Assembly (NCBI RefSeq): GCF_019331795.1
Contig: NZ_JAHPZL010000004.1
Location: 115,870 to 179,869, forward strand
DNA: 64,000 nucleotides
DNA from: Austwickia sp. TVS 96-490-7B
GTDB taxonomy: Bacteria; Actinomycetota; Actinomycetes; Actinomycetales; Dermatophilaceae
Direction: 5' to 3'
Shown here piece after piece: positions 13,057 to 47,746 of the stretch. Position 1 is the first letter of the stretch; every line of letters begins with the position of its first letter. The translations under genes were made by a program, and so were the position numbers. The notes under the pieces were generated by a model that searched no databases, was not told the DNA's origin, and saw nothing but the letters and a program-made list of their open reading frames with translations.

Positions 13057-14835
13057 TTACCCCCAGACCAGGCCTTTCGTGGGGTCGGTGAGGATCGCAG
13101 CGACATCGGCGAGGAACCGGCTACCCAGGTCACCATCGATCAGACGATGGTCAAAGCTCAACGCGAGCTGAGTGACCCACCGTGGCACGACCATTTCCTG
13201 ACCGCCGTGGTCAATGACCCACGGCATCCGCCGTACCGCACCAAACGCAAGGATCGCGGACTCGCCCGGGTTGATGATGGGTGTGCCGTTGTCGACACCG
13301 AACACACCAACGTTGGTGATGGTGATGGTGCCTGCGCTCATCTCAGCTGGTGAGGTGCGTCCCGCACGGGCAGTGTCGACGAGGGCGCCCATTGCCACGG
13401 CAAGTTCCCGCAGGGTCATGGCGTCCGCGTCTTTGATGTTGGGGACGACCAGGCCTCGTGGAGTAGCTGCGGCGATGCCGAGGTTCACGTAGTGCTTGAC
13501 CACGATTTCCTGGGCATCCTCGTCCCAGACAGCGTTGACACCGGGGTTGCGACGGCACGCCAGCAACAAGGCCTTAGCGACGATGAGCAGCGGCGTGACC
13601 TTGACATCCCGGAATTCACGGTCGTTCTTCAATCGATCGACCAGGTCCATGGTGGCGGTGACGTCGATGGTGACAAATTCGGTCACATGCGGTGCAGTGA
13701 ACTTACTACGCACCATCGCGTCAGCCGTCATCTTGCGGACACCTTTGACGGGAATGCGGGTTTCGCGTTCCCCAGGGGCTCGTCGTCCGGCGGATGCGCC
13801 AGCAGTGGCGACCTCCGGGGTGGCGCCACCAGATTGAGGTCCGCACTGTCCAGCGAGGTACGCGTCAATGTCTCCCCGCGAGATGATGCCGCCCTCACCG
13901 GTGCCTGCCACCTGGGTCAGGTCGACACCTCGGTCCTTGGCGTAGCGACGCACTGGTGGTTTAGCCAGTGGGCGCGTCGTACCAGGTGCTCCGGTGGGCG
14001 TTGCCACTCTGCTAGGCGCCGCAGCCGGAGCAGCCGGAGCTGCCGGAGCTGCCGGAGCTGCCGGAGCTGCCGGAGCTGCCGGAGCTGCCGGTACGACGGT
14101 CGGTGTGGGCTTGACGATAGGTGTCGATGCCACGGTGGGTGCTGGGGCGACACCACCTTTTCGGGGTCGGCGCTTGGTGGATCCGGCAATGGCGCCGTAT
14201 CCGACCAGGTTGGGCTCTCGGGTGGGAGCAGCTGGTGGGGCATCGCTGCTCACTGGTGCGCTCCCAGCAACAGCGACACTAATGATCGGCGTACCGACCT
14301 CGACCGTCGTCCCCTCAGCCACCAACAGCTCCGCCACCGTGCCCTCCCACGGAATGGGAAGCTCCACCAACGACTTCGCCGTCTCAATCTCCACCACCAC
14401 CTGGTTGACCGTCACCGCGTCCCCAGGCGCCACCTTCCAACTAACAATCTCCGCCTCAGTCAACCCTTCACCCGGGTCGGGCAGGGTGAAGATCTTGCTC
14501 GTGGACCCAGCGGCCGCGGCGGGGGTCGCTGCTGCGCTGACATCTGCGCTGGGGCCCGGGGCAGGGGCGGCGTCGCTGCTCACTGGTGCGCTCCCAGCAA
14601 CAGCGACACTAATGATCGGCGTACCGACCTCGACCGTCGTCCCCTCAGCTACCAACAGCTCCGCCACCGTGCCCTCCCACGGAATGGGAAGCTCCACCAA
14701 CGACTTCGCTGTCTCAATCTCCACCACCACCTGGTTGACCGTCACCGCGTCCCCAGGCGCCACCTTCCAACTAACAATCTCCGCCTCAGTCAACCCTTCA
14801 CCCGGGTCGGGCAGGTGGAACACCTTTGTTGTCAT
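13057..14835 (-). CDS. Dihydrolipoamide acyltransferase E2 of a 2-oxoacid dehydrogenase, two lipoyl domains
   Basis: 592 residues. Order: lipoyl domain 1 (~1-80), linker, lipoyl domain 2 (~112-190), a long Ala/Pro linker, a peripheral-subunit-binding domain (VRRYAKDRGVDLTQVAG...RGDIDAYL), and the catalytic domain ending in SFDHRLIDGDLGSRFL with the active-site His and Asp. Each lipoyl domain has the lipoylated Lys in IETAKSLVEL. E2 transfers the acyl group from E1 to CoA. It is the third gene of the E1alpha-E1beta-E2 operon; no E3 is in the window. The lipoyl domains are nearly identical at DNA level. Confidence 0.95.
   Translation of the reverse strand: MTTKVFHLPDPGEGLTEAEIVSWKVAPGDAVTVNQVVVEIETAKSLVELPIPWEGTVAELLVAEGTTVEVGTPIISVAVAGSAPVSSDAAPAPGPSADVSAAATPAAAAGSTSKIFTLPDPGEGLTEAEIVSWKVAPGDAVTVNQVVVEIETAKSLVELPIPWEGTVAELLVAEGTTVEVGTPIISVAVAGSAPVSSDAPPAAPTREPNLVGYGAIAGSTKRRPRKGGVAPAPTVASTPIVKPTPTVVPAAPAAPAAPAAPAAPAAPAAPAAAPSRVATPTGAPGTTRPLAKPPVRRYAKDRGVDLTQVAGTGEGGIISRGDIDAYLAGQCGPQSGGATPEVATAGASAGRRAPGERETRIPVKGVRKMTADAMVRSKFTAPHVTEFVTIDVTATMDLVDRLKNDREFRDVKVTPLLIVAKALLLACRRNPGVNAVWDEDAQEIVVKHYVNLGIAAATPRGLVVPNIKDADAMTLRELAVAMGALVDTARAGRTSPAEMSAGTITITNVGVFGVDNGTPIINPGESAILAFGAVRRMPWVIDHGGQEMVVPRWVTQLALSFDHRLIDGDLGSRFLADVAAILTDPTKGLVWG
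14021..14090. repeat. 9-bp tandem repeat coding the E2 Ala/Pro linker
   Basis: About eight units related to GCCGGAGCT in plus-strand sense give the repeated Ala-Ala-Pro hinge of E2. The last six units are almost identical, so copy number may vary between strains. Confidence 0.85.
14243..14485. repeat. Lipoyl-domain duplication, copy encoding domain 2
   Basis: These 243 bp match 14573-14815 with only two differences seen by eye, both synonymous. The offset of 330 bp (110 codons) covers a lipoyl domain and the first part of its linker. Confidence 0.9.
14573..14815. repeat. Lipoyl-domain duplication, copy encoding domain 1
   Basis: Partner of 14243-14485. Near-identity at silent positions points to recent duplication or continuing gene conversion. 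Confidence 0.9.
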
Positions 14836-25120: not shown

Positions 25121-25124
25121 TTCT

Positions 25125-25167
25125 CATTCATCTCAGCGCCACCTTTTCATTCATCTCAGCACCACCT
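25125..25167 (+). repeat. Two-copy 23-bp tandem repeat between the lipoprotein genes
   Basis: CATTCATCTCAGC(G/A)CCACCT occurs at 25125-25144 and 25148-25167. It lies just before the second lipoprotein start and may be a by-product of the gene duplication. Confidence 0.8.
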
Positions 25168-45580: not shown

Positions 45581-46291
45581 GTGCGACTTCTCCCCCAGTC
45601 CCGTTGGGGACGACGACTGATCTGGGCTGGCCTGAGCGCGGTGGTGGCCTTCACCTCCACCGTCGGCGGATGCTACTCCTGGGTGCACATCCGCTCCGCT
45701 GGCCGCCTCTATGACCAAGCGGGCGTAATCACCGGCGCCGACGGCACCCGCCGGGACGTGGCTTTGGTCTTAGGTGCTGGGCTACGCGGGGACGGCACCC
45801 CCACCCCCTATCTCGCGGCTCGACTCGACATCGCCTACGAGCTCTACAAAGCCGGGGTCGTCAGAGTCATCCTCGTCTCCGGCGACAATCGCACCCAGGA
45901 CTACAACGAACCCGCCGCGATGCGGCATTACCTCATCGACAAAGGCGTGCCCGAGATCTTCGTCGTCCAAGACTTCGCCGGATTGGACACCTACGACTCC
46001 TGCTATCGGGCTCGACACATTTTTGAGGTGACCTCTGCCGTCGTGATCAGCCAGAGCTACCACACCCCCCGAGCCGTGTCGTTATGCCGCAGCGTCGGCA
46101 TCGACGCGATCGGCGCCGGAGATGACAGCGTCAAGGTCAACGAACCCACGTGGGCAGCTGGGGAGCAGCGCGAAATCGCTGCGTCAGTCAAAGCAGTCTG
46201 GGATGTGGTCAGCCGACGTACGCCGATCTTGGGCGAGAAGGAGCGCAGCGTCCAAGACCTGCTCCGGTCAGTGCAGCCGACCCGGCGGTGA
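45581..46291 (+). CDS. SanA/YdcF-type (DUF218) membrane-anchored protein
   Basis: 236 residues from GTG 45581. One N-terminal helix (LIWAGLSAVVAFTSTVGG) anchors a DUF218 domain: DVALVLGAGLRGDGTPTPYLAARLD, VILVSGDNRTQDYNEPAAM, VPEIFVVQDFAGLDTYDSCYRA, VVISQSYHTPRA. The family includes SanA of E. coli, linked to envelope permeability and vancomycin exclusion. It shares a transcript with the UDP-glucose enzyme, which supports an envelope role. Confidence 0.9.
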   Translation: MRLLPQSRWGRRLIWAGLSAVVAFTSTVGGCYSWVHIRSAGRLYDQAGVITGADGTRRDVALVLGAGLRGDGTPTPYLAARLDIAYELYKAGVVRVILVSGDNRTQDYNEPAAMRHYLIDKGVPEIFVVQDFAGLDTYDSCYRARHIFEVTSAVVISQSYHTPRAVSLCRSVGIDAIGAGDDSVKVNEPTWAAGEQREIAASVKAVWDVVSRRTPILGEKERSVQDLLRSVQPTRR

Positions 46292-46542
46292 CCGCCCACG
46301 GGTCAGAACAGCTCCCCGGATTACCGGAATTTAACGGACCGGGGATATGTGTGCCTCAGGTCAAGAATGTGCCATGCGCAAGGTCATCCCGGGCAAGGGA
46401 AGACCACAGCATGACGCTTTGATTCAAGTGCAGGTCAAGGGCATTCCTGTTTCATGGAACCTTCATGACCATCCTCCTCAGGATTTCACGGACCGACGGT
46501 TCTCTAGATGACGACACAGCAACCACCGTCCAGGAGGACACC

Positions 46543-46860
46543 ATGAACGCCGTTCGTCGTACCGCCACCGTCGCCGCGCTCGCTCTCAGCCTCACCGGCG
46601 CACTGATCGGCACCGCCCACGCCAGCGAAGTCCCCGCGACCTACACCCAGTCTGGAAGCACCTACACCCAGTCCAAAGGAGGCACCTACACCCAGTCCGG
46701 TGGGACCTACACCCAGTCTCGAGACACCTACACCCAGTCTGGCGTCACCAGCGGCGGGACCTACACCCAGAGTCTCTTCGCCCCGGCCACCTACACCCAG
46801 TCGTTCACCTACACCCAAAGCAACCTGTCCGCGCTCGCACTCGCCGGTCTGCTCGGCTGA
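46543..46860 (+). CDS. Secreted TYTQS-repeat protein
   Basis: 105 residues from ATG 46543 after CCAGGAGGACACC. A Sec signal peptide (VAALALSLTGALIGTAHA, cleavage near residue 27) precedes ~58 residues in which TYTQS occurs eight times, at irregular spacing of about 6-12 residues (ATYTQS, STYTQS, GTYTQS, GTYTQS, DTYTQS, GTYTQS, ATYTQS, FTYTQS). A hydrophobic tail ends it (NLSALALAGLLG). The alternating small/aromatic/polar pattern suggests beta strands or an amyloid-like fibre. It is not a family recognised here. A terminator and an orphan response regulator follow. Confidence 0.8.
   Translation: MNAVRRTATVAALALSLTGALIGTAHASEVPATYTQSGSTYTQSKGGTYTQSGGTYTQSRDTYTQSGVTSGGTYTQSLFAPATYTQSFTYTQSNLSALALAGLLG
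46639..46821 (+). repeat. DNA repeats encoding TYTQS
   Basis: The word ACCTACACCCAG occurs eight times (last copy ends ...CAAAGC), mostly with the same codons. Identical codon choice implies expansion by slippage or recombination. Confidence 0.9.
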
Positions 46861-46870
46861 CCTGCGCATT

Positions 46871-46914
46871 TCCGGAAGCCCCGCTGGGAACTCACCCCCG
46901 CGGGGCTCCGGCGC
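46871..46914. terminator. Hairpin after the TYTQS gene
   Basis: CCGGAAGCCCCGC pairs with GCGGGGCTCCGG (one bulge) around a 14-nt loop. It overlaps the end of the convergent response-regulator gene and may end both. Confidence 0.65.
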
Positions 46915-47746
46915 GCACGGAGCCGGGCTGATGCGCCGCCCGAGCCGTCGCCCCGACCACCCGAGCCACCGACGCCGCTTGACGGGCATGAATGTCACCT
47001 CGTTGCGCTGACCCCATTTCTGGGCGGAGGAGGAATTTATACCCCACCCCGCGCACAGTGCCGATGATTCTCGGTCGAGAAGCCTGGTCCCTTAACGACC
47101 GCCGGATGTTGCGGACGTGGACGTCGACGACTCTCTCATCGCCAAAAAAGTCATAGCCCCATACCCGTTCCAAGAGTTGCACCCGGGTGAATACCCGCCC
47201 GGCGTCTCCCGCGAAGGTCCACAGGAGATTGAACTCCAACGTGGACAGCACCACTTCCTGCTCGTCGAGGTACACCTCGCGGCGGCGTCCGTCGACGACC
47301 AACCCGGGAAATACCCACCGGTCCACTGACTCCCCAGCCCCAAGGACATCCCAGGAGCTTCCGCGATGTCGGCGTAATACCGTGTTGACCCGAGCCACCA
47401 CCTCGCGCGGACTAAACGGCTTGGTGATGTAGTCGTCTGCGCCGACGGTCAAGCCCACTAGCTTGTCTAGTTCTTCATTGCGAGCGGTCACCAAGATCAC
47501 GAACACCTGGCTGTGCTCACGCAACTGACGCAGCACCTCCAAGCCGTCCACGTCCGGCAAGCCCACGTCCAGTAGCACCACCGCTGGCGCCGTCTGGGAG
47601 ACCGACTGCCACGCCTCCTCCCCGGTGCAGGCTTCGTCCACGACAAAACCATCGGCCTCCAAGTAGGTGCGCAACAGTCGACGGATGTGCGGGTCGTCGT
47701 CCACTACGAGGATCCTGCGCTGCCCCTGCTGTGCCCGATCACTCAT
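46892..47746 (-). CDS. OmpR/PhoB-family response regulator (orphan)
   Basis: 284 residues. The receiver has ILVVDDDPHIRRLL, phospho-acceptor Asp60 in VVLLDVGLPD, and the conserved Lys in YITKPFSPRE. The winged-helix DNA-binding domain includes LSTLEFNLLWTFAGDAGRVFTRVQLLERVWG and RRSLRD...IGTVRGVGYKF. After the domain there is an unusual ~45-residue basic/Ala-rich tail. No histidine kinase is adjacent. The 3' end and the TYTQS gene converge. Confidence 0.94.
   Translation of the reverse strand: MSDRAQQGQRRILVVDDDPHIRRLLRTYLEADGFVVDEACTGEEAWQSVSQTAPAVVLLDVGLPDVDGLEVLRQLREHSQVFVILVTARNEELDKLVGLTVGADDYITKPFSPREVVARVNTVLRRHRGSSWDVLGAGESVDRWVFPGLVVDGRRREVYLDEQEVVLSTLEFNLLWTFAGDAGRVFTRVQLLERVWGYDFFGDERVVDVHVRNIRRSLRDQASRPRIIGTVRGVGYKFLLRPEMGSAQRGDIHARQAASVARVVGATARAAHQPGSVRAGAPRG

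Follow-up and report, generated by a model that had tools for sequence, protein, structure and literature searches.

The gene at positions 46543–46860 of the window (the whole stretch of 64,000 nucleotides from Austwickia sp. TVS 96-490-7B that was analysed) is, judged from its sequence and genomic place, orthologous by synteny to genes for pentapeptide-repeat proteins, but by the tests applied its own product is not one of them. We consider its product to be a small Sec-exported repeat protein of the envelope or cell surface that would stand under the control of a two-component switch and belong to a family of the genus Austwickia, and we assign this reading a probability of roughly 0.45, slightly below even odds. 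The window copy has the appearance of a remodelled member of this small genus-specific family, and its form appears to be an unusual departure from a pentapeptide form of known kind.

Reading frame, export signal and C-terminal tail

The window is located on contig C35 of a genome of 3.63 Mb. The reading frame 46543–46860 on the plus strand is real and encodes 105 amino acids, with the stop codon at 46858–46860. Direct reading reveals the ribosome-binding sequence AGGAGG at 46532–46537 (plus strand), and GGAGG is conserved in all four orthologues. Residues 1–27 (46543–46623, plus strand) were assigned by direct reading as a signal peptide cleaved between AHA and S, and signal peptides ending in AxA are found in all orthologues and paralogues. 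An arginine-containing n-region, an 11-residue hydrophobic core (Kyte-Doolittle mean 2.1) and the AHA-S motif make the Sec signal peptide proposed in an earlier, sequence-only reading plausible, and the window protein is plausibly exported by this route.

The C-terminal tail NLSALALAGLLG (46822–46857, plus strand) comprises 12 residues and ends with the motif A-x-x-G-L-L-G (46837–46857), which closes all six known family members. It had been suggested that this hydrophobic tail could anchor the protein. Its hydrophobicity is real, but anchoring as proposed is unlikely since 12 residues are fewer than needed to span a membrane and the tail instead carries the conserved sequence A-x-x-G-L-[L/F]-G. 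A sortase anchor (LPXTG-like motif, hydrophobic span and basic tail) is not present at the C-terminus of the window protein, and cysteine occurs neither in this protein nor in its NFTQS orthologues.

The repeat tract

Between signal peptide and tail lies the repeat tract (residues 33–93; 46639–46821, plus strand), in which TYTQS occurs exactly eight times with spacers of 1–6 residues, the distances from unit to unit being 7, 8, 7, 7, 11, 10 and 6. The number of copies had thus been counted correctly, but the tract extends over 61 residues and not about 58. Among 20,000 shuffles of the composition of the window protein no 5-mer appeared more than three times, and three copies were reached in only two shuffles. 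The codons had been described as nearly constant, which holds for four of the five positions: ACC TAC ACC is found in all eight units and CAG in seven of them. The serine codon, on the other hand, is variable (TCT, TCC, TCG, AGT and AGC). The units therefore differ from one another only synonymously, even across the TCN/AGY division of serine codons. To get from TCN to AGY two bases have to be substituted, normally by way of another residue. This means that the TYTQS word is held by selection at the protein level. The tract is also a tandem repeat at the DNA level.

Two further repeats were seen in the window. A nine-base tandem repeat at 14024–14091 (7.6 copies) is read on the minus strand as a run of Pro and Ala (PAAPAAPAAP), within a long reading frame that by eye resembles a two-lipoyl-domain acyltransferase (E2) component. 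At 25124–25167 about two copies of a 23-bp unit are located just upstream of a lipoprotein-like reading frame (MKHRPPIFATAVTALCLALTGCSS).

Orthologues within the genus Austwickia

Four genomes of Austwickia in the GTDB sense were compared, namely the window genome, A. chelonae NBRC 105200, A. chelonae LK16-18 and the metagenome-assembled genome AUS1 (designated G000 to G003 in this order). All three other genomes contain an intact orthologue at the same locus, following a DUF218/SanA-like gene and convergent with a gene for an OmpR-family response regulator. In the window the SanA-like gene occupies 45581–46291 on the plus strand (Pfam PF02698, 86.6 bits, and synteny). The orthologues possess perfect arrays of a different word, namely (NFTQS)12 in NBRC 105200, (NFTQS)9 in LK16-18 and (NFTQS)14 in AUS1, and within each of them the contiguous units vary at synonymous sites only, including the two-step TCN/AGY serine switch. 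Outside the repeats the two A. chelonae orthologues show 16.0 synonymous differences per 38.7 sites against 9.0 non-synonymous differences per 108.3 sites.

The expectation that the copy number of the repeat varies between strains was borne out, with 8 copies in the window genome and 12, 9 and 14 in the others; even the two isolates named A. chelonae differ (12 and 9). Lack of conservation in relatives or a broken frame had been named beforehand as the outcome that would speak against the gene, and what was found are intact syntenic orthologues in all three relatives. On this comparative evidence the window gene is to be regarded as real, selected and conserved in its relatives.

Relation to pentapeptide-repeat proteins

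The published definition of pentapeptide-repeat proteins demands at least eight contiguous pentapeptides with the consensus (A/C/S/V/T/L/I)(D/N/S/K/E/I/R)(L/F)(S/T/R/E/Q/K/V/D)(G/D/E/N/R/Q/K) (PMC8145042). The orthologues contain 12, 9 and 14 contiguous units, and by direct comparison their SNFTQ fits the consensus at all five positions. In the window protein, on the contrary, the units follow each other at distances of 6–11 and not 5 residues, and two positions deviate from the consensus, position 2 being occupied by T and position 3, where L/F is required, by Y. Pfam PF00805 detects the two orthologues that were scanned with 64.9 bits (NBRC 105200) and 67.0 bits (AUS1) at a cut-off of 20.2, whereas the window protein gives no match to it up to an E-value of 10 and no Pfam match at all. 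A phmmer comparison of the AUS1 protein with solved pentapeptide solenoids yielded a best E-value of 3e-13, to a designed one; the window protein has no relative among PDB structures. The statement that no known family matches is thus true for the window copy but not for its orthologues, since both Pfam and the resemblance to solved structures place them among the pentapeptide-repeat proteins.

AlphaFold models calculated without alignment were of low confidence (pLDDT 47 for the window protein and 52 for the AUS1 protein) and Foldseek returned no significant PDB fold match; in the first half of the low-confidence AUS1 model short strands recur at intervals of about five residues. The NFTQS orthologues probably form a short β-helix of the pentapeptide type with 2 to 3.5 coils. 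For the TYTQS protein an open array of identical polar and aromatic motifs is more likely than a solenoid because its unit is TYTQS and its spacers break the five-residue register. Compared with the known family (PF00805, right-handed quadrilateral β-helix) the orthologues agree in having 9–14 contiguous SNFTQ units that fit the consensus, and the window copy differs in its TYTQS units, spacers of 1–6 residues, two off-consensus positions and missing Pfam match.

Among studied proteins the closest parallel in behaviour, by analogy, would be Caulobacter YjbI. This pentapeptide-repeat protein is secreted, acts at the envelope, is tied to two two-component systems and restrains envelope-stress pathways (PMC12864828). 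Both are exported (in our case by prediction), built of repeats and associated with two-component signalling. YjbI, however, resides on the Gram-negative outer-membrane surface and the family described here was recognised by sequence in a Gram-positive lineage. Moreover, cysteine pairs flank the helix of YjbI and are absent from the TYTQS/NFTQS proteins, and therefore we do not claim membership in the YjbI group. Rfr32-type lumenal proteins of cyanobacteria likewise begin with a signal peptide and continue with a tract of pentapeptide repeats (PMC8145042), but their repeats are longer, degenerate and helix-capped, in contrast with the perfect identical units and missing cap domain of the Austwickia family.

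VVHT paralogues and the common C-terminal motif

In the window genome an unlinked paralogue (contig C24, L121:8847–9230) combines a signal peptide with ten VVHT words, most of them spaced by seven residues, and terminates in FLALNGLLG. Its syntenic orthologue in AUS1 (L120:8012–8365) has 14 VVHT words in exact pentads and ends with TALAELGLLG; at the syntenic place of the two A. chelonae genomes no VVHT gene was found. The neighbours of the VVHT gene include genes for a sodium:solute symporter and a two-component pair of GHKL kinase and LytTR regulator. Both unlinked genes thus show the same difference between the two genomes in which they could be compared, namely arrays broken by spacers with mostly seven-residue spacing in the window genome and exact pentads in AUS1.

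All six members (four TYTQS/NFTQS and two VVHT proteins) have A-x-x-G-L-[L/F]-G as their exact C-terminus. Searching five genomes for this pattern gave ten matches, six of which are the family itself and four of which read as no exported protein, and eight matches in 15 other genomes of the taxonomic family included no exported repeat protein. The window protein bears the complete signature of the TYTQS/NFTQS/VVHT family, i.e., signal peptide, short repeats and this motif at the exact C-terminus. The motif probably serves retention or assembly.

In Pfam the VVHT protein of the window genome also resembles a small metal-binding protein, with 16.5 bits and thus below the cut-off of 29. VVHT-like matches in two further genomes (G086 and G087) come from many scattered places; in G087 (L040–L068) the VVHT protein has 27 of them, all weak, which may be dispersed repeats within coding sequence.

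Distribution outside the genus

Across 84,980 species, each represented by a single genome, the exact pattern NFTQSNFTQS retrieved arrays in two Austwickia-type records only, a scan that needs contiguous pairs and thus misses spaced or altered forms elsewhere. Single NFTQS pairs were noted in Xenorhabdus, in a Chitinophagaceae bin and once in a viral contig. A scan of the genome contig collection for the window protein led to 88 pattern matches, none of them confirmed. When 186 genomes of the taxonomic family were searched at the protein level, only weak matches appeared outside the genus, and those inspected held no such repeat reading frame. The corresponding SanA-like place of 26 loci from other genera contains no such repeat gene, and the response regulator is likewise missing within 1.5 kb. 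Contiguous VVHTx triples were absent from 396 genomes of the order, a sample that excludes AUS1 and a pattern that misses the spaced form of the window genome. A literature search that covered only a minority of subscription journals revealed no paper on a TYTQS, NFTQS or VVHT family. So far this repeat-protein family is known only from the genus Austwickia in the GTDB sense.

Upstream element and the adjacent regulator

At 46450–46466 (17 bp, plus strand) we find a putative operator, an 11-bp direct repeat TTTCATGGAACCTTCAT with the consensus YTTCAYNGAANCTTCAY. In each of the four orthologues this 17-bp direct-repeat element is located 92 to 100 bases upstream of the start codon, and in the alignment of the four upstream regions TTCA..GAA.CTTCA is invariant amid much variable sequence. 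The exact consensus occurs once in each of the four genomes, at this locus only (reversed-pattern control: 0), a uniqueness that is partly circular since these very four sites had served to define the consensus. Upstream of the VVHT genes the element is absent.

The convergent response regulator of the OmpR family (46892–47746, minus strand) has a receiver and a winged-helix domain (Pfam 109.3 and 93.5 bits) and adjoins the repeat gene in all four genomes. In AUS1 a histidine kinase gene (L037:8062–9396) lies between the repeat gene and the regulator, and the extracytoplasmic loop of its product looks very short by direct reading. In the window genome and both A. chelonae genomes no kinase gene is found at that place and the regulator stands without an adjacent kinase. 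Direct repeats with an 11-bp period are typical of regulators of the OmpR/PhoB type. From adjacency and site architecture we infer that this direct repeat is the binding site of the neighbouring regulator. The genus-restricted gene family likely has a dedicated regulator.

Proposed function and alternative interpretations

We propose that the OmpR-type regulator would bind the direct repeat and control the repeat gene upon an envelope signal, in line with AUS1 where a kinase gene is present at the locus. The exported protein may then work outside the membrane as a non-enzymatic, repeat-built component of envelope or surface. Going further, the TYTQS/NFTQS and VVHT proteins might represent a class of exported repeat proteins, peculiar to the genus and linked to two-component systems, that is marked by its common C-terminal signature and not by its repeats, with unit and spacing rewritten along whole arrays; this extension is put forward only tentatively.

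Other functions of an exported repeat chain have to be weighed. A functional amyloid or adhesive fibre, in which polar Thr/Ser/Gln/Asn residues with an aromatic residue every 5–7 positions stack as an extracellular cross-β polymer with the C-terminal motif aiding assembly, would agree with the repetitive polar-plus-aromatic composition, the signal peptide and the variable repeat number. Yet in the neighbourhood that was examined we recognised no known partner genes of amyloid secretion, Pfam assigns the orthologues to the pentapeptide solenoids and the low-confidence AlphaFold models gave no significant fold match, so that we consider a fibre unlikely. It is still less probable that the protein is a glycosylated spacer or mucin-like wall protein whose Thr/Ser-rich units are substrates of O-mannosylation: Thr and Ser make up about half of each TYTQS unit of this exported protein, but a VVHT unit offers one Thr only, and the strict conservation of Tyr/Phe and Gln would be left unexplained.

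An exported multi-copy precursor, cut into identical signal peptides of the TYTQS, NFTQS or VVHT type to which the adjacent two-component genes respond, could account for an invariant word between spacers free in length and sequence in the window species, and for the two-component genes adjoining both families. We regard it as very unlikely because processing sites were not recognised, the NFTQS arrays and the VVHTG array of AUS1 have no spacers at all, three of the four genomes lack a kinase next to the repeat gene and that of AUS1 seems to expose hardly any extracytoplasmic loop. That the tract is a mere DNA repeat in a chance reading frame without protein product can hardly be maintained: the repeat does exist at the DNA level, but it varies synonymously only, the frame is intact in three other genomes, and signal peptide, ribosome-binding site and C-terminus are conserved.

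Implications

If the wider reading as a genus-specific class with rewritten units and spacing is true, nature would here provide an example of a protein that crosses between the pentapeptide solenoid and a form that is no solenoid, its locus, upstream element and export signal being kept. At one locus of close species a recognised pentapeptide-repeat form stands beside a form outside that family, with the amino-acid word constant in each. The orthologues may thus offer a small and tractable natural series on how repeat folds change their unit and register. Expression can be tested by way of the operator-like site and the regulator next to the gene, and the common C-terminal motif may provide a handle on retention or assembly of these proteins.
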